From positions 3,038,001 to 3,102,000 of the forward strand of contig NZ_CP008884.1 in the NCBI RefSeq assembly GCF_000725385.1: 64,000 nucleotides of DNA. The letters run 5' to 3'. Below the pieces are notes generated by a model, which made no database searches, was not told the origin of the DNA, and saw nothing but the letters and a program-made list of their open reading frames with translations. A program made the position numbers and the translations under genes. This document shows, piece after piece, positions 45,188 through 60,355 of the stretch. The stretch is from Dyella japonica A8 (GTDB taxonomy: Bacteria; Pseudomonadota; Gammaproteobacteria; Xanthomonadales; Rhodanobacteraceae). How positions within the stretch are numbered: position 1 is the first letter of the stretch; the number at the start of each line of letters is the position of its first letter.

Positions 45188-45532
45188 ATGCGGCTCTTAC
45201 TCAACGACGAAGATGACCCTGTACCCATCCCGATAGATGATGTGATCCGGGAGGCCTGGGCCCTTCAGTACGATAGAGCGCATCACGGAGGTGGTATGGA
45301 CCATTTTCGAGAGCGCCTTGCAGTTTGCTTTGCGAATAGCCTGGCCGCTTGCCTGGACACTGATCTCCAGCCACCAACGGCGGCACAAATGCAGTACGCA
45401 ACATCCATAGCTCGAGAATTGGGCGTTGCGCTGCCATATGAGGCGCTCCGCTTCCGTGGCACGATGTCCGACTTCATCGACAGATTCGCAGATGCACTGC
45501 GTGCCAAACGCGAAACCTACCTTCGAGAATAG
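45188..45532 (+). CDS. hypothetical protein divergent from XRE copy 1
   Basis: A 114-residue protein of mixed helices and strands, not recognised. It has a long central helix (FRERLAVCFANSLAACLD) and an AGGA ribosome site before the ATG. It is divergent from the XRE gene and followed 8 bp later by another small gene. Confidence 0.62.
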   Translation: MRLLLNDEDDPVPIPIDDVIREAWALQYDRAHHGGGMDHFRERLAVCFANSLAACLDTDLQPPTAAQMQYATSIARELGVALPYEALRFRGTMSDFIDRFADALRAKRETYLRE

Positions 45533-45931: not shown

Positions 45932-46408
45932 TTAGCGGCGCTTCTGGAGATGAGTGGATTCGCCTCTTTCCGCTAACATTGTGATGTTATTGGTCGGCAT
46001 GGCGTTTAGGCGAACTAGCGTCTCCCTGGCATCCTCAAAGCCTTCGAATAGCTTAGCCCAAGCTGCGAATCCCCCGATCTCGCCTACCGCGCGAATCATG
46101 GCCATATGTGAAGCGACTAACACTTGAACTTCACGTTCAAGTGCCTCGATTCGGGCATCTCTTGCAGCGATGTCAGTTGAGACAGAAGCTCGCGACCGGT
46201 GCTGGACTCTTTGAGATATCGAACGTATTCGTCTCTGCTCCTCCTGATAGCGAAGGAGGGCGGCTCGGCGGCCGGGCAATCGAGTAAACGAGCTCGCTGA
46301 TTTGAGGGTGGGGTGACGCCTAGCGAGTTCTCTGGCTGTAATGTCCACATCCAGTTCGAGCATTTGCCTCAACAGTTGATCAATTTCTTCTGAGTTGTCA
46401 GTGATCAT
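45932..46408 (-). CDS. ginD: small coiled-coil protein of the recombinase operon (GinD-like)
   Basis: A 158-residue protein with an N-terminal helical DNA-binding-like region (DITARELARRHPTLKSAS) and a coiled coil at about 55-115 (RIEALEREVQVLVASH). Tn554 TnpC and GInt GinD occupy the same place and are of similar size; both are required for efficient recombination in those systems. Its ATG overlaps the stop of the upstream recombinase by 4 bp (ATGA). The name is given by position and size. Confidence 0.72.
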   Translation of the reverse strand: MITDNSEEIDQLLRQMLELDVDITARELARRHPTLKSASSFTRLPGRRAALLRYQEEQRRIRSISQRVQHRSRASVSTDIAARDARIEALEREVQVLVASHMAMIRAVGEIGGFAAWAKLFEGFEDARETLVRLNAMPTNNITMLAERGESTHLQKRR

Positions 46409-48729
46409 TTCTGGCTGCCGTCAGTTGCTTCCGGTTTTGAATAGTCCTTCCCATCAGGAAATGCAGCGCGCCCCGGCTCTGTGGCTAGCAGGGAGCGGAC
46501 ACCTTGAAGCGTGCTTCTCGCATGATCTAGCTGATTCTGCCAGCCGACGTTCCTGATGCCACGCTCCTCAATGTCGTCGACAGCGGCGACGAGCTTGATC
46601 TCAAGTTTCCGCAGATTTGCGTGTGCCACCGGATCTTGGCTACTCGTCAAGTGCCTACAACCCGCGAAGCACTGCAGGTGTTTAGGACATGGACTTACTG
46701 TGAAGCTAGACACGCAAGTGCCGTAAGGCGTGGCGTGAAATCCATCCGCTTCCGCCCTGAGAAAGGTCAAGGCCGCTTCTTCGCCCTCATCTGCCTGGAT
46801 ACGCCTAAAATCATCGACGATGGGGCCGGATGATTTGTTGGCCCTAATCATTTTATAGACGGTGGAGGTCTTCTCGCCGAGGGCGTACTCCACCTCTTCG
46901 GGTATCTCGATGGCGTTCAGGTCCTCGGCCAGTGATCGGTGATCGTACTGATAGCTTTGAGTGACACTCCGTCTGTTGAATTGTTTCGTAATAATCGTGT
47001 CTGCTACCCCTAGCCGATACAGCTCATTGTTCAACAGATGGCGAAGCATGTGTGATCGGATGACCAGGGATCGATCTTCGACAGTTGCCCCATAGCGCTG
47101 AAAGATGGATTCAAATTGATCGCTTTCTCCCAGTGCTGCGGTTAAGAAGTCGGGGGAGGGGCGATTGACAGAGGCGTACCTAGTGATGTCGCAGATTCCC
47201 TCGTTTCTCTCTTCCGCTAGAGACCGTTTCGGGTGGAGAAACATAAGGTCCCAAGTCTGGATGAGGCCCCCTTCGAGTCTCAATGGCTCGACATCGCTCG
47301 CCTTTGTTCGCTTTCCATCCTTAAGGTATTCCTCTAGCTCACCGATCCGAAAAAAGGCCAATTGCCAGCGAATCCGATCCGTGGCGCCATACTCGGATCC
47401 GTCCTCGCGACGGACATATAGGGCGCCTTCTTTCAAGCCAGCTGCTCTCATTCGATTGAAGTAGACGTAGGCGGCGTTTGAGATCGATCGCTTGCCGCTG
47501 GCGAAATCCGCCACCTGCAATTCAAAGAGCCGATCAAACTGGCCACCAGAGACGTCGGCGCGACATGTTGATCGCCAAGATTCGCGCTCTTTCTCGTCAA
47601 ACTCTGTCCAGTAGGGGCTTCCCGAAAGGTAAGGGTAGAGGTGAAGCATCGGGACAAGTTGCGTCGCTCCAAATGACGGCAGTAGGCGCCCAGATTCGAC
47701 CTGGGCCCTGAGTGTCTTGCGCAGCGGCTCGGTGATGGCGTTAACTCGACCGAGAGTTTCCTGTAGAAAGTCCTCAAACATTCGCGGAACGAATGCGGTT
47801 GCCTCGCTAAGCGTTAGTGATGAGCCCCCATCCGTATTCTGCTTTTCGGCGAAGTGCCGAATCATCATAGTGCTATCAACACCGCCAAACGCAGAGGCGG
47901 GCGCCCCGGACGGTGATACGTGGCTACGGCGGCGCAGCCAATCGGAAGGCAGTCTAGTCGCCTCGCCAATCCGAAAGCCTGTGACGATCATTAGGCGTAT
48001 CGCCGCAAAGCGCAGTTCGTCGACAAGGCTCCGTGGCTCTTCCGTCATCACAATGCGGATCAGCTCCCAAAAGGCGCGCTGTGAGGGAAGTCGTTCGGAT
48101 CGTTTTCGCTCCTCCAGGGAGCTTCGGATCGTCTCGGCAGATTTCAAGAACTTTGCGCGCCGACTCTTTCCGGGATTCAATCTTGCGCTAGCTACAACGG
48201 CGTAAATTGGGCCGGCATCGGCGAGGTGATTCTGGTCGAATAGTATCTTGGCCAATGCGGCCACTCGGTCGCCTAGAACTCCGCATGATTGAAGTCCCGC
48301 CGCCACCTTGACTGCGGCAGCAATGTCGTCGGAGTTGATTTCCCAGGGCTCCTTGTCTCGTGCGACTGTGGCAAGTACGCGCAGTGGTCTGATCACACAA
48401 TTGACGACGTGACCTGTGGAATTTTTTCGTACGAGTAGTTGTTCGATCACCGCCGCCTTGATGAGGTTCTGCCACCCATCAGATAGAACTCTCACGCCGC
48501 CGCTCAATTCTGGCGCCTGACCCGCCAACGCCTTGAGAGTGGCGTCGTCGCAGCCAAGATGGTTTAGATGGTGTGCCGGCGTCACAACACCACCGACCAT
48601 CTGCGTGAGGTTCCATCCCCGGCCTCGCAAGGCCTTTCCTTCTTCTGACAACGGGATATCCCAAGCGACTTGCTGGTCGCTAGCGATCGATCGAGAAAGC
48701 GCAACAAACGCGGAGAAATTGTCATTCAT
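46405..48729 (-). CDS. ginC: tyrosine recombinase 3 of the operon (GinC-like)
   Basis: A 774-residue divergent tyrosine recombinase. The catalytic domain (about 240-640) has an Arg in TGFRIGEATRLP, HMLRH as the HxxRH-type motif and Tyr in QSYQYDH; the usual GH/W box is altered (KQFNRRSV). A Cys/His cluster, SPCPKHLQCFAGCRH, lies near the C-terminus and may bind zinc. Its ATG overlaps the preceding gene by 8 bp (ATGAATGA), indicating coupling; an upstream in-frame start is less likely. It is the third gene of the operon. Confidence 0.8.
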   Translation of the reverse strand: MNDNFSAFVALSRSIASDQQVAWDIPLSEEGKALRGRGWNLTQMVGGVVTPAHHLNHLGCDDATLKALAGQAPELSGGVRVLSDGWQNLIKAAVIEQLLVRKNSTGHVVNCVIRPLRVLATVARDKEPWEINSDDIAAAVKVAAGLQSCGVLGDRVAALAKILFDQNHLADAGPIYAVVASARLNPGKSRRAKFLKSAETIRSSLEERKRSERLPSQRAFWELIRIVMTEEPRSLVDELRFAAIRLMIVTGFRIGEATRLPSDWLRRRSHVSPSGAPASAFGGVDSTMMIRHFAEKQNTDGGSSLTLSEATAFVPRMFEDFLQETLGRVNAITEPLRKTLRAQVESGRLLPSFGATQLVPMLHLYPYLSGSPYWTEFDEKERESWRSTCRADVSGGQFDRLFELQVADFASGKRSISNAAYVYFNRMRAAGLKEGALYVRREDGSEYGATDRIRWQLAFFRIGELEEYLKDGKRTKASDVEPLRLEGGLIQTWDLMFLHPKRSLAEERNEGICDITRYASVNRPSPDFLTAALGESDQFESIFQRYGATVEDRSLVIRSHMLRHLLNNELYRLGVADTIITKQFNRRSVTQSYQYDHRSLAEDLNAIEIPEEVEYALGEKTSTVYKMIRANKSSGPIVDDFRRIQADEGEEAALTFLRAEADGFHATPYGTCVSSFTVSPCPKHLQCFAGCRHLTSSQDPVAHANLRKLEIKLVAAVDDIEERGIRNVGWQNQLDHARSTLQGVRSLLATEPGRAAFPDGKDYSKPEATDGSQK

Positions 48730-50251
48730 GCCAATCGCCCTCGATGCCAGCGATGACGCCTTGCACGCCATCGATCGTCCTCTTTAGCTGCAGATAGGCA
48801 GGCGATGCCTGTTCGTCGTGCGACGCGCGCTGAAATTGTGAGACAACCTCCCGCAGGTCACGCAATACCTGCCTATGTATCGAGGCGTCATGCAAGGGCA
48901 TGAATCGACGGCAGGTGTAGCACGATATTGCAGGATTGTATTGGCATGCGCGTTGGCCCGATGTGCAGCCACCAATTCCTGAGATTGGTATCCCATGTGG
49001 CACTCCGCCAATTTGGTGGTCGGCTTTCAGTTGTGCGAGATCTTCGGCCGTGATGTACCTTTGTTTCGCTATTCTTGCGACGTTGACATAGGTATTCGAG
49101 ATCCCGAGAGCTTCGTTAATTCGTTCCGCTTGGCTCGCCGAAGTTTTGAAGTAGACAAGCGCCGTGGTGATGTCCGAGTGTCCAAGAAAGGCGGCCAATT
49201 CCTCGTGATTTGCGCCGGCGTTTACCATGCGCTGCGCCGCGGAATGCCTGAATGTGTATGTCGATACGCTGTCGTTGCTGAGAAGATGCCGCGCACGAGT
49301 GGCAATCCGGAGGCCGGCCTCGCGGCCAGAATCTACCGCGAATATCCTTCTGTCGGCCTCTAGGCCTAACTCATGTGCTCGAGTAAGAAGCTCTATAAAG
49401 ATGGCGTTCCACTCAGGCTTTACACGTCGAACCATTGGCAGGGCACGGACTCCCGCCCTTTGCTTGACCATGGGGAAAGACAAGTGGACGGAGTTGGCGC
49501 CACTTTCGACGTGGGCCCTGTGTTTCACATCCTTGATCTTTAGGCGCGCTATTTGGACGGGCCTAAGACCAAATTGAAATGCGCAAACAAGCATCGCTAT
49601 GTCTGCCAGATCGCGGTAGGGCCACCGTTCACGCTCGACGTTTACAGATAGCGACGCCTCATCAATCAGGCCAACAATCAATGCCTCCTGTTCGATTGAG
49701 AGAAACGCGTCGCCGGTTTTTAGCGCCGCATATTTTTCAAACGGTGCGCCAGGCAGTGACTTGCCGACGAATTCGAGATATGCCGGTGACCAGTCTGCAA
49801 TACGCAGGTCGCAAAGGGTTCGAAGCAGAGCTTTCGCCGCTTCATACGCGGCCCTTGGATAGGCCTTTGAAAGAAGCCGCGACCAGAGTTTGGCAGTCTG
49901 ATGCGGTCCAAAGGTTGCCAGATCGGCAAGCTCATCGGGTGTAAAGTGAACGATATCCGTTACACGGCCGTAGGCGGTGTGGGAAGTGACGCCTCGGGAA
50001 ATAAGACGAACGAATACATGCTTGAGGAGCTTGGCAATAGCGGGATGAAAGCGGGAGAAGTCTGCCGCCAGAGTAGTTCCGTTGTAGCGGATTTCGTATA
50101 CGTTTGACTCATTCAACCTATCGATCGACCGCCGCATTTCATCGAAGTCATCGAAATAGCTGATTCGCGAGGGCAGGGAAGGGATCTGGCCTTCTATCTC
50201 GTGGAGTCGATCTCGCTCGATTCCTGGTGCGAATAGATCCCCATTCTCCAT
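48722..50251 (-). CDS. ginB: tyrosine recombinase 2 of the operon (GinB-like)
   Basis: A 509-residue tyrosine recombinase. An N-terminal SAM-like module (about 30-150) precedes the catalytic domain (about 200-400), with Arg in FGLRPVQIA, TFRHSAAQRM as the second-Arg motif, FLGHSDI and the nucleophile Tyr in LVYFKTS. A C-terminal Cys-rich zinc-binding-like tail (CTSGQRACQ; CYTCRRFMPLHD) follows. The N-terminal module recurs as a separate protein at 38332-38880. It starts 23 bp after the upstream recombinase. Confidence 0.85.
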   Translation of the reverse strand: MENGDLFAPGIERDRLHEIEGQIPSLPSRISYFDDFDEMRRSIDRLNESNVYEIRYNGTTLAADFSRFHPAIAKLLKHVFVRLISRGVTSHTAYGRVTDIVHFTPDELADLATFGPHQTAKLWSRLLSKAYPRAAYEAAKALLRTLCDLRIADWSPAYLEFVGKSLPGAPFEKYAALKTGDAFLSIEQEALIVGLIDEASLSVNVERERWPYRDLADIAMLVCAFQFGLRPVQIARLKIKDVKHRAHVESGANSVHLSFPMVKQRAGVRALPMVRRVKPEWNAIFIELLTRAHELGLEADRRIFAVDSGREAGLRIATRARHLLSNDSVSTYTFRHSAAQRMVNAGANHEELAAFLGHSDITTALVYFKTSASQAERINEALGISNTYVNVARIAKQRYITAEDLAQLKADHQIGGVPHGIPISGIGGCTSGQRACQYNPAISCYTCRRFMPLHDASIHRQVLRDLREVVSQFQRASHDEQASPAYLQLKRTIDGVQGVIAGIEGDWHE

Positions 50252-50274
50252 ATTCCACCGCTCCTTTAAGTTGG

Positions 50275-51489
50275 TTAGGAAAGCGCGCGAAGAACTTCGA
50301 TTTGGCTGTCAAATTTTTCAGACCACACGGAGGTTAGCCTGTTATCGAACACCGCTGCTGCGTACTTCAGCGGCATCGTTGATGCGCGCGTCCAGCCGAA
50401 GAATGTCCGGAGTTTCTGCGTCGCCTCATCCATCGAGTCGCCCTGTCGTAAAAGCTGATTGAGTCTTATGACAGCACACGTGTGGCGAAGATCGTGCGGG
50501 GTGATATTGGGTCTCCCAAGGTGGGCCTTTATTTGCGCCTGTATGTCCTTGGGAAGGGCAAGGCAAGCTTTGACGAAGATCTTCGTCAATGATTCGGTCG
50601 ATAGCGGATGCCCTTTCTGTGAGTTCATAAGAAAGGAGTGGCCTGGGCGACCGCGATAATTGTCGACGTAAGATTGGACTATATGGACAACGGCGCTGCT
50701 CACCGGTAGCTGCCGGATCGAATGATCGGTTTTTATGCTTGGTCTCGTGAAACGAGGGTCACTGTCTTCACCTTCATAGGGATTGCTTTGAATATTGATC
50801 CAGAAGCGCTCCTGATTTCTCTCGCCATCGAAGCCAGATTTTATGGCATCGAGCGGTAGAAGAAGGAGCTCGCCACGGCGAAGGCCTTGATGAAGCAGCA
50901 GTATGAAACTTGCGTAGACAAGCCACCGCGTGTGGTTCCGGGTGAACGGATTCGCTTTAGACGACGGATCAAGATGCTCGTACAGGCTTTGAACTATGTT
51001 CGCCGGTAGCGATCGTATTCGGTCAGCTTGGCGCGGCTTCTGGACACGAAGCTGCTTATACAGGTGCGTGAGGCGATCTAGAGAGCTCTGCAAACCCTTT
51101 AGGTGCACATTGGACACGGGCGAGCGGACCTTCCATGAAACTACAAATTTGACGAACTCGTATCCCGTTTGCCAACGAGCTTCGTCGGACGAACTTTGCT
51201 TGGGTTGATTGGCTATTGAGATGAACCAGGTCTCCAGGATTCGAGAAAGCCGGTCCATGTCGAGAAGGCTCAGGGAGGAATCTAAAGAACCTAGGCCGAA
51301 CTTGCTGTCGCTGTGCGCGTAAAGGCTCTCTAAGTAGCGGAGCCGCTTCTCCTTTGTCGCTGGGGCTGTGTCATTGAGAGCAAGAACGCTCCATGCAACT
51401 GCCCAAAACCGCGGGCGCCCCAGATCGTCGACGATGACCGGCCCCCTGAGAGGGCCTGGCAAATCCGTAAGCGTCAGCCGAGTGAACAT
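50275..51489 (-). CDS. ginA: tyrosine recombinase 1 of the operon (GinA-like)
   Basis: A 404-residue site-specific integrase. Core-binding region about 40-150; catalytic domain with Arg in QGLRRGELLLLP, HDLRHTCAV and Tyr in LKYAAAVF. It is the first gene of the four-gene operon. ATG 51489 is preferred over a GTG two codons earlier. The ribosome site is poor. AT-rich direct repeats lie 70-210 bp upstream. Confidence 0.87.
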   Translation of the reverse strand: MFTRLTLTDLPGPLRGPVIVDDLGRPRFWAVAWSVLALNDTAPATKEKRLRYLESLYAHSDSKFGLGSLDSSLSLLDMDRLSRILETWFISIANQPKQSSSDEARWQTGYEFVKFVVSWKVRSPVSNVHLKGLQSSLDRLTHLYKQLRVQKPRQADRIRSLPANIVQSLYEHLDPSSKANPFTRNHTRWLVYASFILLLHQGLRRGELLLLPLDAIKSGFDGERNQERFWINIQSNPYEGEDSDPRFTRPSIKTDHSIRQLPVSSAVVHIVQSYVDNYRGRPGHSFLMNSQKGHPLSTESLTKIFVKACLALPKDIQAQIKAHLGRPNITPHDLRHTCAVIRLNQLLRQGDSMDEATQKLRTFFGWTRASTMPLKYAAAVFDNRLTSVWSEKFDSQIEVLRALS

Positions 51490-51559
51490 AGCCACAGCCG
51501 CAACGATGGAAACGACCTAAAAGTAAAAGAGAATCAGGTCATTTGGCTAGGACCCGAAG

Positions 51560-52826: not shown

Positions 52827-53001
52827 TATTCAGTACACATTAGGAAAAATGCAAAGAATCAGTCGCTTACGAGAGTTTTTTCTTCAAAACACAGGCTTTC
52901 TTTTAAGGTCAGGCGGATGCACTCTTACGGGGAGCGTCCGATCCGTTTCGGTCTATTCGGGTCGCGAGCTTATTTGTTAAATACTCATTAAAAATCAAGA
53001 T

Positions 53002-53034
53002 AAAAAAATAGCCAGCTCGGTCAGGGGCTGGCTA
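53002..53034 (-). terminator. leftward rho-independent terminator
   Basis: On the minus strand, TAGCCAGC and GCTGGCTA arms (8 bp, 10-nt loop) are followed by a run of seven T. It would stop leftward transcripts coming from antisense of the Tn7-like operon before they reach 52826. Confidence 0.72.
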
Positions 53035-53038
53035 TCGG

Positions 53039-53059
53039 CACGGGTATAGCGGACCCGTG
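53039..53059. promoter_or_regulatory. inverted repeat ahead of the TnsA-like gene
   Basis: CACGGGT-N7-ACCCGTG is perfect and lies about 110 bp before the TnsA-like start. It could be an operator for the transposition operon. Confidence 0.4.
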
Positions 53060-53167
53060 TACTGCGTGTTTGAGCTTACGGCGCTTCTAATAAGGCGTCA
53101 AGGGCAGCTATTGCCCCGAGCTGGACAGCGTAGTCACGCGCCGCGCCCATATTGGAGGGTGCGACTG

Positions 53168-53848
53168 GTGGTGGCGAACAAGAAGCAAAAGACGCCTGCG
53201 CAAGCGCAGCGCAGCAAAATCGCTGAGGCGATTCGAAAGAGAGGTGACAAAGGAACCAACATTTGGCTGGTTCGGCCACCATTTGAGCAAAAGGATCTGA
53301 TTTTAAATAGCGATCCGGCGTTCGAGGCTTTCTACTTGCTCGAAGGCGAGCCAGATTTCAAAGACATCCGCTACCTGCCGCATTGGTATGAAGTCCAAGA
53401 TGTGAAGCAGGCATGGCAGCCCTCCAAGCCATTCGCGTCCGTGACCACGCTAGCTGGCGGCACGCTGCAAGTCGAGCTGGCATTTGATGCAGCAGCTCCC
53501 AAGGGAGACGCAGCCAGAGAGTTGGCGCCAGTGGACGGTATCGTCACCGTCAACCTCCATGTCCTTAACAGTCACGTCCAGCGCGTCGAGAACTGGCGGC
53601 GAGTTGTTCCTTGCATTCGCCGCGTGCGGGTGCATTCGACCAGAAGCGTGGAGCGTCAAATACTGATCCGCTTGAATTCTCTCAAACGCTCGACGCTCGG
53701 GAAACTGCAGGCCGAGTTCTCGGATGTCGAAGTGGGCATCTTCTATGGGGCAGTCGCAACGCTGCTCAGGCGGCGCGACCTGTGTGCCAACCTCGATACA
53801 CACCCTTGGTCCACCCACACTCTCGTGTGGAGTGCAGAGGCATGCTGA
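53168..53848 (+). CDS. TnsA-like protein, probably lacking nuclease residues
   Basis: A 226-residue protein in the position of TnsA. FEAFYLLEGEPDFKDIRYLP resembles the TnsA N-terminal helix and QP motif, VENWRRVVPCIRR the middle, and YGAVATLLRRRDL with DTHPWS the C-terminal domain. In TnsA the catalytic residues sit in PDF and E/Q-x-K; the corresponding stretch here (PFASVTTLAGGTLQVELAF) has no Asp and no Lys, so the nuclease is probably inactive. A GTG at 53168 is proposed since GGAGG lies 9 nt upstream. It overlaps or adjoins the transposase gene. The assignment is by position and short motifs. Confidence 0.6.
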   Translation: MVANKKQKTPAQAQRSKIAEAIRKRGDKGTNIWLVRPPFEQKDLILNSDPAFEAFYLLEGEPDFKDIRYLPHWYEVQDVKQAWQPSKPFASVTTLAGGTLQVELAFDAAAPKGDAARELAPVDGIVTVNLHVLNSHVQRVENWRRVVPCIRRVRVHSTRSVERQILIRLNSLKRSTLGKLQAEFSDVEVGIFYGAVATLLRRRDLCANLDTHPWSTHTLVWSAEAC

Positions 53849-53924
53849 ACCCAAGAAGCGCAGATCACTCGCAGATCGCGAGCTTTCGGCAAAGTTGCCA
53901 CTGCGCTTTCGCTGGTGCCGGGCG

Positions 53925-55988
53925 ATGAGTGACATCAAATACACGCGCGAGAATGCTCCTCGCGATTGGTTGAACTATCGCGAATGGGTCGAGGTTAGCA
54001 CGGAGGGCTGGCCAGAGAAGCAGGAGAAGCGGTTTAACCTTCTTTACCAAGCAGTCATTGACTACATCGAGGGGCGCCCGTTCGATGCGGAACTAAAATC
54101 CCAAAATATCTACATTCAGACACTGCTCCGTAGCTTCAGGCGCTGCATTACGCCCGACGGAAGTGGAGAGCTCGTGGGTTGGCGCGGACTCATCAAGAAC
54201 CTTCGATTTCGTCCACCGGAGCGCCGGAAGCCACCTATGGCGAGTGGGCGCAGTAAGAAGGGAGGTTTGGCTGGCGCCCTTGCGCAATTTCTTCGTCAGC
54301 ATAAGGAGATTGCCGCTGACTTTGAGAAATACCTACTAAATAGCGCAAGGCGCGCCGAAGGGTGTGAGGCGCGGTTACGCGAGAAGTCCGCGCACCAAAA
54401 ATTTCTCGAGTTGTGCGAGAAGGGTGGTGTAAACAGCTGGGAGTGGCCATTTTCTACCAAGAAGCTTGGTCGCGAATCGATTCGGGGCTATCTGCACAAT
54501 TTCATCAATCTTCGTTACGACGATATCGTCGCAACTCAGTTCGGTAGTCGTGCTGCTGCCCGTTCAAAGACAGGCACGGGCATGCATAGTCGATTGATGG
54601 CGAACCGTCCATTCGACATCGTCGAGATGGACGAGCACAAATGTCAGTTCATAGGATCCATTGGTATTCCGTCGCCAGAAGGAATGCGTTGGCTGCCGAT
54701 TGAGCGTATCACCATCATCTTGGTCATTGATCGCTGGCTACGAACCATCCTTGGCTACAAGATTGTCTTCCGCAGAGAAGCGAATGCGGATGACGTCTTG
54801 GATGCGCTCAATAGCGCCATGGGAAATGGGCGCCCGCGGACGTTTTGTGAAGGCTTTGAGGAGCAGTCCAGCGCAGGTCTTCCCAGTGAGCTTGGAGATC
54901 CCTTTACGTGGTGCGGTTGGAATCAACTGCTTGTTGACAATGCATTAATCCACCTTGCTGAGGAGGTCGGTCTGCGTTCGCGTGATCTCCTTGGTTGCGA
55001 CATCAACTTTGGGCCGATTCGGCGATTCGATCGAAGGCCGACCGTCGAAGGCATATTCGGCGGGATGGAACGACTTGGATTTCGAAGAATCCGCAGCACG
55101 GTGGGCACATCACCACTGGATCCCATGCGGCAAGATGCTGAGGGCCAGGCTATCGCGGCGAAGGTCCCAATCATTGATATCGTACAACTCATCGAAAGTA
55201 TCATTGTCGACCACAATCGACGGAACTCGAAATCCAACTTTGGATCGGATCCCATGTCGCGGCTGGAAGCTGCGTGGCATGACACGGACAAGTTCGGCCT
55301 CATTGTGCCCGCCCTTCCGCCATTGGCACCAGGAAAGAAGGCACTCAACGTCTCTGTAGCTGAGTTCACTGTCAGGGGGAGCCAGCGCGATGGGCGCCGC
55401 CCCTATATTCATTTCGAAGGAGCGGATTACACCACCGTAGAACTCGCCAGCGATTGGAAGTGGTTGAATCGGCGCGTCATAGGGCACATCAGTCGCGATG
55501 CGATTCGCGAGTTTCCGCTTTTTGCAGAAGATGGCACATTTATCGGGATTGCCAAGGTTCAAGGGCGCTGGCGGCACACCGAGCATTCGCGAGATGTCCG
55601 GAAGCATATCAATGATCTGATCGAAGAGGGATACCTGGCCATTGGTTTCTTGGACGATCCCGTGCATCAGTGGCTTGAACGCATTCGAGAGAAGTCACGA
55701 AGCGAAAAGTCCGCGAAATCGATTTCGCGCAAAGACCTTGCCCATTTGGCAGAACACGAACTTAGTCAGCGAGCTAACGCGGTAGAAGGTCGCGAAATCC
55801 CTGCGCCTCACGTTGAACCATCGGCCCCACCTCCGGTTGTGCATGGGCCTGATCCTCGTACCGATTCCAGCCTGTCTCAATCCAGTAAGCCGAGCGGCCT
55901 TCAGCATCTACCGGCAAGCGCTCCCGAGGTGGCAACTACGGCTGAGGAAGATGACTACCTCGACTACGACGATCTCAATGCATTCTGA
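53925..55988 (+). CDS. tnsB: TnsB/TniA-type DDE transposase
   Basis: A 687-residue retroviral-integrase-fold (Mu/TnsB-type) transposase. The DDE residues are in IVEMDEHKCQF, LLVDNALIHL and PTVEGIFGGME. The N-terminal ~200 residues hold DNA-binding HTH segments; the C-terminal tail after about 600 is Ser/Pro/Asp-rich and ends in an acidic patch, likely the TnsC-contact tail. The start is uncertain: GTG 53832 (overlapping the TnsA-like gene) and ATG 53925 are both in frame. It catalyses strand joining at the element ends. Confidence 0.88.
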   Translation: MSDIKYTRENAPRDWLNYREWVEVSTEGWPEKQEKRFNLLYQAVIDYIEGRPFDAELKSQNIYIQTLLRSFRRCITPDGSGELVGWRGLIKNLRFRPPERRKPPMASGRSKKGGLAGALAQFLRQHKEIAADFEKYLLNSARRAEGCEARLREKSAHQKFLELCEKGGVNSWEWPFSTKKLGRESIRGYLHNFINLRYDDIVATQFGSRAAARSKTGTGMHSRLMANRPFDIVEMDEHKCQFIGSIGIPSPEGMRWLPIERITIILVIDRWLRTILGYKIVFRREANADDVLDALNSAMGNGRPRTFCEGFEEQSSAGLPSELGDPFTWCGWNQLLVDNALIHLAEEVGLRSRDLLGCDINFGPIRRFDRRPTVEGIFGGMERLGFRRIRSTVGTSPLDPMRQDAEGQAIAAKVPIIDIVQLIESIIVDHNRRNSKSNFGSDPMSRLEAAWHDTDKFGLIVPALPPLAPGKKALNVSVAEFTVRGSQRDGRRPYIHFEGADYTTVELASDWKWLNRRVIGHISRDAIREFPLFAEDGTFIGIAKVQGRWRHTEHSRDVRKHINDLIEEGYLAIGFLDDPVHQWLERIREKSRSEKSAKSISRKDLAHLAEHELSQRANAVEGREIPAPHVEPSAPPPVVHGPDPRTDSSLSQSSKPSGLQHLPASAPEVATTAEEDDYLDYDDLNAF

Positions 55989-56294: not shown

Positions 56295-57236
56295 ATGATG
56301 GATGTGTTGAACGAGCGTGATGCCAAGCGTGAGAAGGTTTGGCATGAGCACCCTATCATCTGCGAGTGCGCCGTGCTGCCCACTCGCTCGGTTCGGGATG
56401 CTGTCGCCAGGGTTCTACGCATAACAAGAAAGGCGCGTGCTTCCATTGCCTTCTATGCTGACCCGCAGACCGGAAAATCCTCCTGCATCCGGGCCATTAA
56501 AAGAGAGCTTGAAAGACGCATTCCCGGGGTCGGTATCGTCTCGCTAGAGGCGGTAGATGACAAGCAGCAAGCGGAAGGGAGGCTTCTGATTGGCATCCTG
56601 AATGCGATCGATTTCGCAGGGAAGATCGATCGCGACCTTGCGATGAAGCGAGAGCAGGTGAAGCGCGCACTGATTGCTCTTTCGGGAGACGCCCGGCATA
56701 TCGTTATTGTGATTGATGAGGCACAGGAAGTGAGCAACGACGAGTTTGTATGGATGAAGGCGGTGATCAACGGCCTGGCTGAAAGCGGAGTCAAGGTGAC
56801 GACGATACTATTTGGTCAACGCGAGTTGGTGGCGCGAAAGACAGATCTTGACGCCCATGGCCGATCGGATCTTGCGAAACGATTTATGAAGAAGCTTGTT
56901 CCATTTCGTGGGCTTCGTGTTCGGAAGGATCTGTCGACATTGTTGGAGTCATTGGATAAGCCATCCGGCGATGACGGAAAAGAGGCCTGTTACACCTCCA
57001 ATCTATTCCCTGAGGCGTTTGAGGGTGGATTTAGGTTCCACAATTGGCTGGGTGCATTCTGGGATCGGCTGGCCTTGATGGTTCCTCAGAAGATGCTGTC
57101 CGCTGGTCTTCCCATGGATATCGTGGCGGCGTTCTTGGCGAACATCTGCATGGAGCAAAAGGGACATGACGGACCCGAAATGACGATCTCGGAGCCTGTC
57201 ATCGATAAAGCCCTCAAGCTTGCCCTGCAGGATTGA
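56295..57236 (+). CDS. tnsC: TnsC/TniB-type AAA ATPase
   Basis: A 313-residue AAA+ regulator. Walker A reads ADPQTGKSS (about 54-62), Walker B IVIVIDEAQEV, and the sensor region TTILFGQRE. It links target-site proteins to the transposase and provides target immunity in Tn7-type systems. AGGAG precedes the ATG. Its stop lies 2 bp before the GTG of the TniQ-like gene, so translation is likely coupled. Confidence 0.88.
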   Translation: MMDVLNERDAKREKVWHEHPIICECAVLPTRSVRDAVARVLRITRKARASIAFYADPQTGKSSCIRAIKRELERRIPGVGIVSLEAVDDKQQAEGRLLIGILNAIDFAGKIDRDLAMKREQVKRALIALSGDARHIVIVIDEAQEVSNDEFVWMKAVINGLAESGVKVTTILFGQRELVARKTDLDAHGRSDLAKRFMKKLVPFRGLRVRKDLSTLLESLDKPSGDDGKEACYTSNLFPEAFEGGFRFHNWLGAFWDRLALMVPQKMLSAGLPMDIVAAFLANICMEQKGHDGPEMTISEPVIDKALKLALQD

Positions 57237-57238
57237 TC

Positions 57239-59059
57239 GTGAGTCATGGTCGCAATCGCTTCGTCCCTTGGCGCGATGACTCACTACTCAGTCAGGAATC
57301 TGCTTATGCGCTATGGAATAAGATTTCCTGGTTTTCCGGGGTGGCGCCCATGAAGTTGGTCAAGGCATGCCGCTTGGTCAGTGGCGGCAAGATGACAGGA
57401 TGGGAAGGGTATTGTTATAGAGATCCAAGTCACTGGATCTCTGCCATTGATAATGACTCGATCCTTCCTGCTGTGAATGGCCATTCTGCAGTCGATATGA
57501 TTCGTAGATTGGCAGAGCAAGCGCAAGCAGAAGTTGGGCGGCAGTGGTGGTGCGATAACCTCCGCGTATGTGAGGTTTGTATCGGCCTTGGCGTTCATTT
57601 GCGCCTTCATCAACACAGTGCTGTGATGCGCTGCCCGTTGCATGATCGACCCCTCCGGTCGACATGCTCATCGTGTGGAAGCACGTTGTACTACTCGATC
57701 GCAAAGAAGCGGCACGCCTTCTCTTGTGGCCAGTGCGGTCATTGCTTCTTGAGCAACGGGGATATTCAGTTTTTTCACTTGGATCACGATCGCGCATTCG
57801 TCGATCACGCGTGTGAGAGCGCGCAACAATGGCTTGATGCCCTGAATATTGGAGTCCGGGTCGATTGCATCGAGTATGGCATCGTGAAAAAAGGGGTAAT
57901 CTCGACGTTTGCGTGGGGCAGGGACGGTCGGCTGGATACCCGCGATCTCTATCTTAGTGCGCTTCGGCGATCATCGGATTCGGTCCCGTCGTGGCTGCGG
58001 GAGCCGGTAGCCTTCGAGGGAGAGTTGTCCATTGCAAGCGTGCATCGGGCGGATGGCCGTCCTGGGAAAGGCCTTGCTTGCGCCAGCAAGGTACGTCGCT
58101 GGGTGATCCGGGACGTCAAGGATCAAAACCCACTCGCTGGTTTGTTGGGAGATGGCCGACCCGACCCAGAGGCATTGCAGCAGGTCGCGCACGGGCTCTT
58201 GAGCTATAAGCGACGGTGCGACGGTTTCACACCCAAGCAATGGCGCAGCGATGTACAAAAGCTCATGGCACCCCTGCTTTCGATTTGTGAGCCATCGGTC
58301 AAAGCGGACTTGGACGATCTTCCGCGCGATCATGTCTCTAGGCGGTTTGTTGAGCGGCAGCATTTGGCGATCCGGCGCGTGACAGCAACGTTCCTCAAGA
58401 GCATCGCGCCAAACCATGGAGACTGCTGGGAAGTTGTCGATAAGATTCGTGGCCTGTCGGGCCATGGTCATCGTTTGGAACCTGAGCTGCTGGATTGCTG
58501 CCCTTTGGCTCTCGGGTTTTGGTTATGGCGAGACCGCGCTACCTGGGTCTTTGGTGACGTACAAGATCGCTGCACGGAATTGTCTGGTGGCCTTGGCTCG
58601 CGGATGGATGCAGCAAATCTGGATGTGCTCCTCTATGCGCTGGAGCGGAGCGATCTTCACGCGAGTGTCATAGCCGCACACTATTGCCTCACAGGAAAAA
58701 TCCGGGCCGAAGAGGAGGCTAGCTACCTGCATGCACTAGACCTTTGGCGTGGTGGGCGGCACTACTTCAGCGCGGAGCATGAAATGTGGCTGGACTATGG
58801 CGAACAGGCACATGCCGCGACGTTTGTACGAGCTGATGCGACATGCCTTATGCGTTCAGTGAAATGCACGGGTATGGAGCCTTATTTTCACGCCCTGCGT
58901 AAGTGGCTTCGCGCCATTCCGGCCGCAGATCGTCCGATAGGAGAGACTCGATACAAAGACTTCGAGCACGCGTGGACGGAGTACAGCGAACGTCCGTTTA
59001 GTCCAGTTCCTACGGCACACGATGCGTGGCTATTCTTTGGCGGCGAAGCGGGCGCTTAG
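57239..59059 (+). CDS. tniQ: TniQ/TnsD-type targeting protein
   Basis: A 606-residue TniQ-family protein. The TniQ zinc-finger region (about 100-185) shows CEVC, CPLH, CSSCG and CGQCG ligand pairs. The C-terminal ~400 residues lack known motifs, and the total length is nearer TnsD (site-specific target selector) than the ~400-residue TniQ of Tn5053. A GTG at 57239 with AGGA upstream is chosen; a TTG two codons earlier is possible. No target site could be deduced. Confidence 0.85.
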   Translation: MSHGRNRFVPWRDDSLLSQESAYALWNKISWFSGVAPMKLVKACRLVSGGKMTGWEGYCYRDPSHWISAIDNDSILPAVNGHSAVDMIRRLAEQAQAEVGRQWWCDNLRVCEVCIGLGVHLRLHQHSAVMRCPLHDRPLRSTCSSCGSTLYYSIAKKRHAFSCGQCGHCFLSNGDIQFFHLDHDRAFVDHACESAQQWLDALNIGVRVDCIEYGIVKKGVISTFAWGRDGRLDTRDLYLSALRRSSDSVPSWLREPVAFEGELSIASVHRADGRPGKGLACASKVRRWVIRDVKDQNPLAGLLGDGRPDPEALQQVAHGLLSYKRRCDGFTPKQWRSDVQKLMAPLLSICEPSVKADLDDLPRDHVSRRFVERQHLAIRRVTATFLKSIAPNHGDCWEVVDKIRGLSGHGHRLEPELLDCCPLALGFWLWRDRATWVFGDVQDRCTELSGGLGSRMDAANLDVLLYALERSDLHASVIAAHYCLTGKIRAEEEASYLHALDLWRGGRHYFSAEHEMWLDYGEQAHAATFVRADATCLMRSVKCTGMEPYFHALRKWLRAIPAADRPIGETRYKDFEHAWTEYSERPFSPVPTAHDAWLFFGGEAGA

Positions 59060-59320: not shown

Positions 59321-60355
59321 ATGCATATGCGCAAGTTCTATACGCTGTCTCACTCCGAGTCCATCGCATTGGGTTGTTTCAACTCCTCGGATGACGAGGT
59401 TCCAATTTGGGTCGGCTCCCCTTTTTTTGGACTACCGTCCAGCGAGGTCGATTGTTTCCGGCCGCCAGCACCACTTAACTGCCTTTTGTTGCTCGACGTG
59501 AATATTCTTGGAGCTATCCGGGCGCGGAAGAACGTAACAAACGTTCGGAGTTTGTTTGCTTGGGCGGCAAGCCAAGGACTGGAAGTAACGCCGATTGTCG
59601 CCGTGGCTGAGCAACATCGGACCCATGGCGCTCCGGATAAGGCGTTTCGACACTACGTTGACGTTCTTCGGACCGACTATCTCTATGATCTTCCGACTCA
59701 GGAGGTCGATAGACTGCTGGGGGTATTCAAGGAGTTCTCGCCGGCAGTAGCTGATAACGTCAATTTTATTGCGAACTACTTCGTGTTGATTAAGCACTTC
59801 TATAACAAGCGCTGGTCCGTGGATAGAAAGGTTAAGGAGTTTGCTGAGCTAGTGCGTGAGCGAAACGTGCCGGTGTTGGCATTTGCTTTTCTGCTCGGCT
59901 GCGTCTATTTCTACGTCCGCGACAATCCAGGGCAGTTCCCGCCCGCGATAGTAAGCAAAGTGCAAAGCGACATGTGCGTTTACGCGGATAAGAAAAAAGA
60001 ACGGGTTCACCTCAGGAATCTGGCGTCCGACTTAATGTTGCTCAGCGCACCTGCCGAAATATTCTTCAATCACGAGACGTCGGAATTCAATTTCTGCTAT
60101 GTAGCATCTGGCGACGTAAGCATCGGCTTGGCTCTAACGGAGATTGCTTACACGCAGGTCGTCGTGAATGATAAGCGATGTTTCGGAAGCCTCGGATTTA
60201 GGCCGTCAGGCACTGTGTCCGACGTCCTAGAGGCTGCGGTTACTAAATATTTGCGTCAAAGCTCTCAGCAAAGTTTTTCCTTCAAAGGGCGTGGCGACGG
60301 ACGCTTCGATAACTTGGAGCGGCTTGCCGAGGAGATGCTAAGCGGCCACCCCTAG
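59321..60355 (+). CDS. PIN-like domain protein of unknown function
   Basis: A 344-residue protein whose N-terminal third begins LNCLLLLDVNILGAIRARK, the strand-Asp pattern of PIN-like nucleases; a later Asp lies in NLASDLMLL and another in VVNDKRC, positions where PIN domains keep their metal-binding acids. The middle is alpha-helical. Function is unproven; it could be an RNase effector in the transposon cargo. It starts 260 bp after the TniQ-like gene with a weak ribosome site (AAGGG). Confidence 0.55.
   Translation: MHMRKFYTLSHSESIALGCFNSSDDEVPIWVGSPFFGLPSSEVDCFRPPAPLNCLLLLDVNILGAIRARKNVTNVRSLFAWAASQGLEVTPIVAVAEQHRTHGAPDKAFRHYVDVLRTDYLYDLPTQEVDRLLGVFKEFSPAVADNVNFIANYFVLIKHFYNKRWSVDRKVKEFAELVRERNVPVLAFAFLLGCVYFYVRDNPGQFPPAIVSKVQSDMCVYADKKKERVHLRNLASDLMLLSAPAEIFFNHETSEFNFCYVASGDVSIGLALTEIAYTQVVVNDKRCFGSLGFRPSGTVSDVLEAAVTKYLRQSSQQSFSFKGRGDGRFDNLERLAEEMLSGHP

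Follow-up and report, generated by a model that had tools for sequence, protein, structure and literature searches.

A 64,000-nucleotide stretch of the Dyella japonica A8 chromosome (contig NZ_CP008884.1, positions 3,038,001 to 3,102,000; hereafter, the window), which is part of a 4.83-Mb single-contig genome, carries the operon of a Tn7-like element in which the gene preceding the transposase gene tnsB codes for a TnsA homologue that has lost the residues of its nuclease centre. We consider it probable that this protein is retained as a non-catalytic partner of TnsB and TnsC, and that the element transposes replicatively, via cointegrates. The operon is composed of four genes in the same direction, coding for proteins of 226, 687, 313 and 608 amino acids:

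53168..53848, plus strand: tnsA-like gene (226 amino acids, GTG start at 53168), a putative pseudo-nuclease with a C-terminal winged-helix-like domain
53925..55988, plus strand: tnsB, a DDE transposase (687 amino acids) with D, D and E present
56295..57236, plus strand: tnsC, an AAA+ ATPase (313 amino acids; AAA_22, E 2e-11) with a Walker-B-like VIVIDE motif
57233..59059, plus strand: tniQ/tnsD-like gene (608 amino acids) with three CxxC motifs, named from its position and from the third genes of its relatives

Above its cut-offs, Pfam names tnsC alone among these genes, as an AAA ATPase, and the AAA+ ATPase expected of a tnsC in a Tn7-like transposon is thus present. A TnsB profile built from 13 relatives finds in the PDB the TnsB part of PseCAST TnsAB (E 1e-10) and ShCAST TnsB (E 3e-5). 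The tniQ-like gene has no Pfam TniQ match; it resembles the third genes at related loci, and that of L016 (in our locus numbering) gives a weak TniQ match under the cut-off (E 0.001). An earlier note on this DNA had assigned the interval 53168..55988 to a TnsA-like subunit; the tnsA-like open reading frame (ORF) lies at its start, at 53168-53848, and the interval also covers tnsB (53925-55988).

The nuclease residues and the relation to TnsA

The catalytic residues of Tn7 TnsA, which we take to be numbered E63, D114 and K132, do stand at 63, 114 and 132 in the Tn7 row of our alignment (L146), and in a MAFFT alignment with this row the corresponding cells of the window protein contain A51, F89 and A105. 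When D114 is moved one residue earlier it faces P88. The earlier note had read PFAS and QVELAF where TnsA has its catalytic motifs, and both are there, as P88-F89-A90-S91 and Q101-V-E-L-A-F106; it had also named acidic residues and a lysine in shifted positions as the finding that would contradict it, and the window protein shows no acidic residue at D114 in either register and no recovered lysine. The helix glutamate is lost as well (S-x-x-E in Tn7 TnsA, S-D-P-A51 in the window protein), with an invariant glutamate, E53, two residues past A51. In a family of 20 homologues including the window protein, position 51 is occupied by Q in 17 members, by A in two and by E in one, position 89 is F or L in every member, and none has a lysine at 103-106. 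The turn between the two strands, where position 96 is acidic in 13 of the 20 members, favours by eye the register that places F89 opposite D114, although the P88 register is also allowed. Judged by these alignments, the E, D and K of the TnsA endonuclease are gone from this protein.

Its membership of the TnsA family is not apparent from domain databases. A protein search returned 20 proteins, the window protein itself included, none of them with a precomputed Pfam domain, and the closest named homologue is from Dyella. Neither NCBIfam nor Pfam recognises the protein, and PF08722 (the TnsA N-terminal domain of Pfam) does not match it at E up to 1. This model also misses nine of ten relatives tried, the tenth (L019) being just below the cut-off, which is passed by the relatives L042, L106 and L145. 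The relation is instead shown through a chain of intermediates, because the direct comparison with Tn7 TnsA, given below, is not significant. In profile-profile comparisons, the window family (21 sequences) matches a canonical group of seven ORFs located upstream at related loci (all three residues are present in six of them, and L144 has Arg for Lys) with 94% probability (E 1e-7, 153 columns; reversed control, 0.1%) and ten intermediates with 99.9% (E 1e-35), and Tn7-type TnsA matches the same intermediates with 89% (E 2e-6); the reversed-sequence controls were all at or below 26%. Pfam-recognised sequences are present at these links, L106 and L145 among the seven ORFs and L042 among the ten intermediates. 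A comparison of a 'group II' profile with the window family by hhalign did not exceed its controls, PDB sequence searches with the TnsA alignment and with the L042 TnsA found nothing, and a search for related loci in genome contigs found no relative.

An AlphaFold model of the window protein, built from 39 sequences (mean predicted local distance difference test, pLDDT, 91; predicted template modelling score, pTM, 0.84), has a predicted layout in which an S-D motif at a helix start is followed by strands and then by a C-terminal winged helix. Foldseek searches of the PDB with this model place TnsA chains at ranks 1, 2 and 5 (E 0.02-0.06) and a chain of the TnsABCD transpososome at rank 6, and an earlier model from a 20-sequence alignment had TnsA at ranks 1-3. 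By its sequence the protein is a member of the TnsA family, and the claim that it is a TnsA-like subunit without its nuclease residues is borne out by the profile chain and by A51, P88/F89 and A105. It should be filed as a TnsA homologue, not as a TnsA endonuclease.

Residue loss, tree and selection across related loci

The state of these residues was followed in 68 related tnsB loci, which comprise the window, ten plasmid records (of 66 matched by TnsB) and, of the 60 places that TnsB matched in other genomes, 57 (the partial matches G080, G132 and G352 were left out). Four of the loci, L034-L037, were first chosen by a TnsA profile in a sample of one order and were later also matched by TnsB. 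A TnsA-like ORF stands directly before tnsB or overlaps it in 64 loci and is 200-344 amino acids long in 61 of them (an ORF of at least 200 amino acids in 61 of the 68 loci). When each ORF and its close relatives were removed from the profile, all 64 were found again at E 1e-3 or better; in the other four loci (L041, L046, L139 and L140) the full TnsA profile finds no TnsA-like ORF (best E 2.3).

The catalytic lysine is lost in 53 of 63 readable loci and kept in ten, and the aspartate is lost in 26 of 62. The substitutions are diverse (V, I, D, T, A, R and others for Lys; S, A, C, F, H and T for Asp). All three residues are kept in seven loci (L042, L105, L106, L124, L127, L143 and L145) and in each of five Tn7-type references, and the D, D and E of TnsB are present in all 68 aligned sequences, that of the window included. 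Since the loss of the lysine recurs in so many readable loci, the loss of the residues is more than chance. The relatives come mostly from one order, supplemented by the ten plasmids and by a small number of further families from the same class, so that 53 of 63 is not a census. For these counts, L043 was excluded (its tnsA is interrupted by an insertion sequence, IS, and the Lys placed by MAFFT is not the strand Lys), L104, at a contig start, was counted for Lys alone, and L123, which is short, was not counted for Glu; the identical pair L022 and L133 entered with both members, and four loci with a gap in the Lys cell (L035, L036, L038 and L107) were read by eye as not Lys. The single element that the earlier note had assumed proves to be one member of a larger lineage.

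In a tree of the 68 TnsB rows (a quick IQ-TREE search with support from the Shimodaira-Hasegawa-like approximate likelihood ratio test, SH-aLRT; the root is uncertain), the lysine state requires at least six changes and the aspartate state eight. Of the seven loci that keep E, D and K, six fall in one clade (support 100), together with L019 and L144, where the lysine is lost; L042 and L104 sit near the base of the clade that includes the window. Nested in that same clade are the four tnsA-less loci, as a single branch (support 100). We lean towards a history of a Tn7-like lineage, sampled here mainly in the order of the window (Xanthomonadales, judging from Dyella homologues) and on Burkholderiales plasmids, in which TnsA became an activator or scaffold of TnsB that no longer cuts. 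The cutting function would have been lost stepwise and on several occasions, before one branch gave up the gene entirely.

The ratio of non-synonymous to synonymous substitution rates (dN/dS) was tried in 11 gene pairs, three of which gave no usable dS for the tnsA-like gene. Each ORF was read from its earliest possible start codon, which for the window meant the longer, 263-amino-acid ORF. In the five pairs with dS below 1.7 in both genes, dN/dS of the tnsA-like gene is 0.13, 0.13, 0.17, 0.10 and 0.12, with 0.08-0.19 for tnsB; all five pairs are without the lysine and four of them still have the aspartate. This suggests that the tnsA-like gene of the relatives is under purifying selection, as would be expected for the structural role that the earlier note had put forward.

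Mode of transposition and alternative explanations

According to a passage of PMC11406308, the work in Tn7 and in CRISPR-associated transposon (CAST) elements is divided between TnsB, which cleaves and joins the 3' ends, and TnsA, which cleaves the 5' ends. In the window element, TnsB would still cut the 3' ends and join them at the target, and, because no subunit would cut the 5' ends, the strand-transfer product would stay attached to the donor and would become a cointegrate through replication, to be resolved through recombination by the host or through a recombinase that some of the elements carry or that lies near them. The part of PMC8188705 that describes the TnsA D90A mutant of VchCAST, the V. 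cholerae CAST, reports that insertion continues and that more than 95% of the products are cointegrates. The expectation of uncut 5' ends and cointegrates, which the earlier note had also put forward, is drawn from this mutant and not from the window element. An excerpt of a 2026 preprint (PMC13345079) describes the TnsB N-terminus docking in a pocket of TnsA, and reports that both TnsA and TnsC are needed for the DDE triad to be locked in the active state. From this we infer that a TnsA that does not cut and still docks would act as a scaffold or activator, keeping TnsB controllable and making the element replicative. An N-terminal motif of TnsB was considered as a TnsA-docking site; it did not separate cleanly between groups and was not used.

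Several observations weigh against this reading. No insertion products of the window element have been seen. Repeats in 52.5-62.5 kb, a BLAST comparison of the region upstream of tnsA with 104 kb of chromosome and genomes of the genus that hold the right flank revealed no convincing terminal repeat, target duplication or empty site; as neither defined transposon ends with repeated TnsB sites nor a 5-bp target-site duplication were found, the mobility of this copy is unproven. Three more divergent gene pairs, one of them the window with L015, have higher dN/dS in the tnsA-like gene (0.24-0.29, at dS 1.7-2.6, near saturation). The aspartate is kept in 36 of the 62 loci and eight of the 53 loci without the lysine have Arg in its place, so some relatives could keep activity. 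Within the 20-member family, position 88 is acidic in 16 members (D in seven, E in nine; P in three, Q in one), a possible shifted acidic residue in relatives, though not in the window protein, and D43, D49 and E53 are invariant in all 20 and could form an unusual centre.

These last residues are the ground for the view that the protein still cuts through a rearranged active site, formed by D43, D49 and E53 or by the acidic position 88 with Arg for Lys; enzymes of the PD-(D/E)XK type are known for migrated active-site residues. We regard this as unlikely, given the proline at position 88 of the window protein and the lack of a lysine at 103-106 throughout the family; moreover, the relatives have lost Lys and Asp by differing substitutions, which fits relaxed catalysis and not one new centre.

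It is likewise improbable, to a slightly greater degree, that another nuclease, of the host or encoded by the element, cuts the 5' ends, so that transposition is of the cut-and-paste type, with the TnsA homologue serving solely in assembly of the complex. Nicking of the 5' ends by the host has been proposed for rare simple insertions (in the relevant part of PMC8188705), and the gene after tniQ belongs to no known family:

59321..60355, plus strand: ORF5 (344 amino acids), after tniQ, of no known family

No relative of ORF5 was found at L015-L025 or L034-L037, so that there is no sign of a conserved substitute nuclease, and, in an all-against-all BLAST of the 68 loci, no family besides the tns genes and the tyrosine recombinases occurs in more than 16 of them (the smaller families being partly identified).

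That the protein is not a TnsA at all, being an unrelated winged-helix DNA-binding accessory protein, is very improbable. In its favour, Pfam and NCBIfam leave the protein unrecognised, and VIA-align lists no TnsA chain, the rows that it lists matching only the C-terminal winged helix. Against the main reading, the direct hhalign comparison of Tn7 TnsA with the window family reaches a probability of 1.2% over 27 columns, with a reversed control of 5.3%, and so speak the Foldseek matches, which are weak (E 0.02-0.08, template modelling score 0.31-0.41, none at E 1e-3) and include cullins at ranks 3 and 4. Against such an origin stand the profile chain, which reaches Pfam-recognised TnsA, the same gene position in 64 of the 68 loci and the top Foldseek ranks of TnsA for models from two different alignments.

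The least credible explanation is that the gene is a useless remnant, in decay within the operon, which would fit the loss of catalytic residues, the strong sequence divergence and the IS in the tnsA of L043, but disagrees with the low dN/dS (0.10-0.17) of the five closest pairs, with the 36 positions invariant across 20 homologues at identities down to 40%, and with the length of the ORF in most loci.

Surroundings of the operon and relation to known elements

Upstream of the tnsA-like gene, the window contains the following features:

45932-46408, minus strand: ORF of 158 amino acids, after the three recombinase genes
46405..51495, minus strand: three tyrosine recombinase genes (406, 509 and 788 amino acids), the 788-amino-acid one just under the Pfam cut-off
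52995..53060: A-run and two GC-rich hairpins (the hairpins by eye), upstream of tnsA

The earlier note had seen no resolvase next to the operon, which is not quite exact, since three tyrosine recombinase genes are located 1.7-6.8 kb upstream of tnsA on the opposite strand; serine resolvases were not searched for. Together with the 158-amino-acid ORF, these genes look like a separate mobile unit, similar to a recombinase trio or a Tn554-type unit. The putative unit (45932-51495, minus strand) is flanked by the tns operon on one side and, on the other, by a block that contains genes for a subtilase, an AAA protein, an SRAP and an FRG-domain protein. Among the related loci, a tyrosine recombinase is found at no more than 8 kb from tnsB in 14 of the 53 loci without the lysine, five of the ten that keep it, three of the four tnsA-less ones and also L043; loss of the nuclease residues is therefore not tied to a tyrosine recombinase in this sample, in a count whose seeds were drawn from the loci themselves, which limits its sensitivity, and which did not extend to serine resolvases. 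Outside the count, an ORF of L110 (14892-16232) passes Pfam as a recombinase, and one of L108 (6218-7471) clusters with the recombinases and has no Pfam match. L041 and L139 have an integrase beside tniQ that is related to a DUF3701/Phage_integrase protein of L045. In L118 (8197-9117) and L119 (6347-7267), a tyrosine-recombinase-like gene overlaps the end of tniQ, and in L109 (3787-6729) a 980-amino-acid ORF after tnsB contains a recombinase-like stretch; these three recombinase-like genes are possible TnsF-like target selectors.

Within the A-run and hairpin region (52995-53060), 59 bp are 88% identical to L015 9408-9465, which is above the identity of the matched gene parts, and a similar A-run and hairpin are seen by eye upstream of tnsA in L034, L108 and L110. 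The A-run with its strong GC-rich hairpin reads by eye as an intrinsic terminator of the minus strand, and was not listed by a consensus scan. A small protein with no Pfam domain and a conserved part of about 115 amino acids (window 45188-45532; L015 15127-15492) has members in 16 of the 68 loci, about 3-10 kb from the operons and on either side, in some loci paired with an SseB-like gene; it may be a cargo or attachment-site gene. The tns regions of L022 (4592-17835) and L133 (1-13244) are 99.9% identical over 13.2 kb; past the tniQ side the two diverge, and farther out a stretch is similar again (90-91%), as an exchange of cargo at a single site might leave behind.

The laboratory mutant D114A of Tn7 TnsA, without the aspartate, reportedly still supports transposition. 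With Tn7 TnsA itself (PF08722/PF08721; 1F1Z, 1T0F) the window protein shares the location before tnsB, the S-D helix start, the strands and C-terminal winged helix predicted in its model, and the top Foldseek matches; it differs in that E63, D114 and K132 are replaced, in being 47 residues shorter and in not being recognised by Pfam. VchCAST TnsA D90A is also a TnsA without the aspartate, as far as the text of PMC8188705 on this mutant goes; that is a single-residue change made in the laboratory, whereas the window protein has lost all three residues naturally and the lysine is gone in much of its lineage. Sections of PMC8649781 (Benler et al. 2021) and PMC11406308 (Annu Rev Biochem 2024) describe Tn7-like elements that have no tnsA and in many cases carry a resolvase; from those sections, such elements (the Tn5053 family and type V-K CAST) have TnsB, TnsC and TniQ without a working TnsA nuclease and are predicted to transpose replicatively, but the lineage of the window, unlike them, retains a conserved TnsA homologue. 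In the open-licence part of PubMed Central, we found no description of a natural lineage with a nuclease-dead TnsA. According to the portions of the two articles that give their search procedures, TnsA was found in PMC8649781 by PF08721/PF08722 together with models from CASTs, and in PMC10293859 by PF08721/PF08722 with the Pfam cut-off; surveys built on these two domains probably miss a TnsA of the window type and count the elements as lacking TnsA.

The choice of a Tn7-like element between cut-and-paste and copy-and-paste movement depends on TnsA, and a natural lineage that has TnsA without its nuclease separates the cutting role of this subunit from its structural role. If this is true, the related loci would constitute a living series from the cut-and-paste Tn7 to TnsA-free replicative elements, pointing to a possible origin of the latter (Tn5053, type V-K CAST), and some of the elements regarded as having no TnsA would be predicted to need a hidden TnsA homologue in order to work. 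This would also be of relevance to CAST tools, in which cointegrates are unwanted and the activation of TnsB by TnsA is under study.

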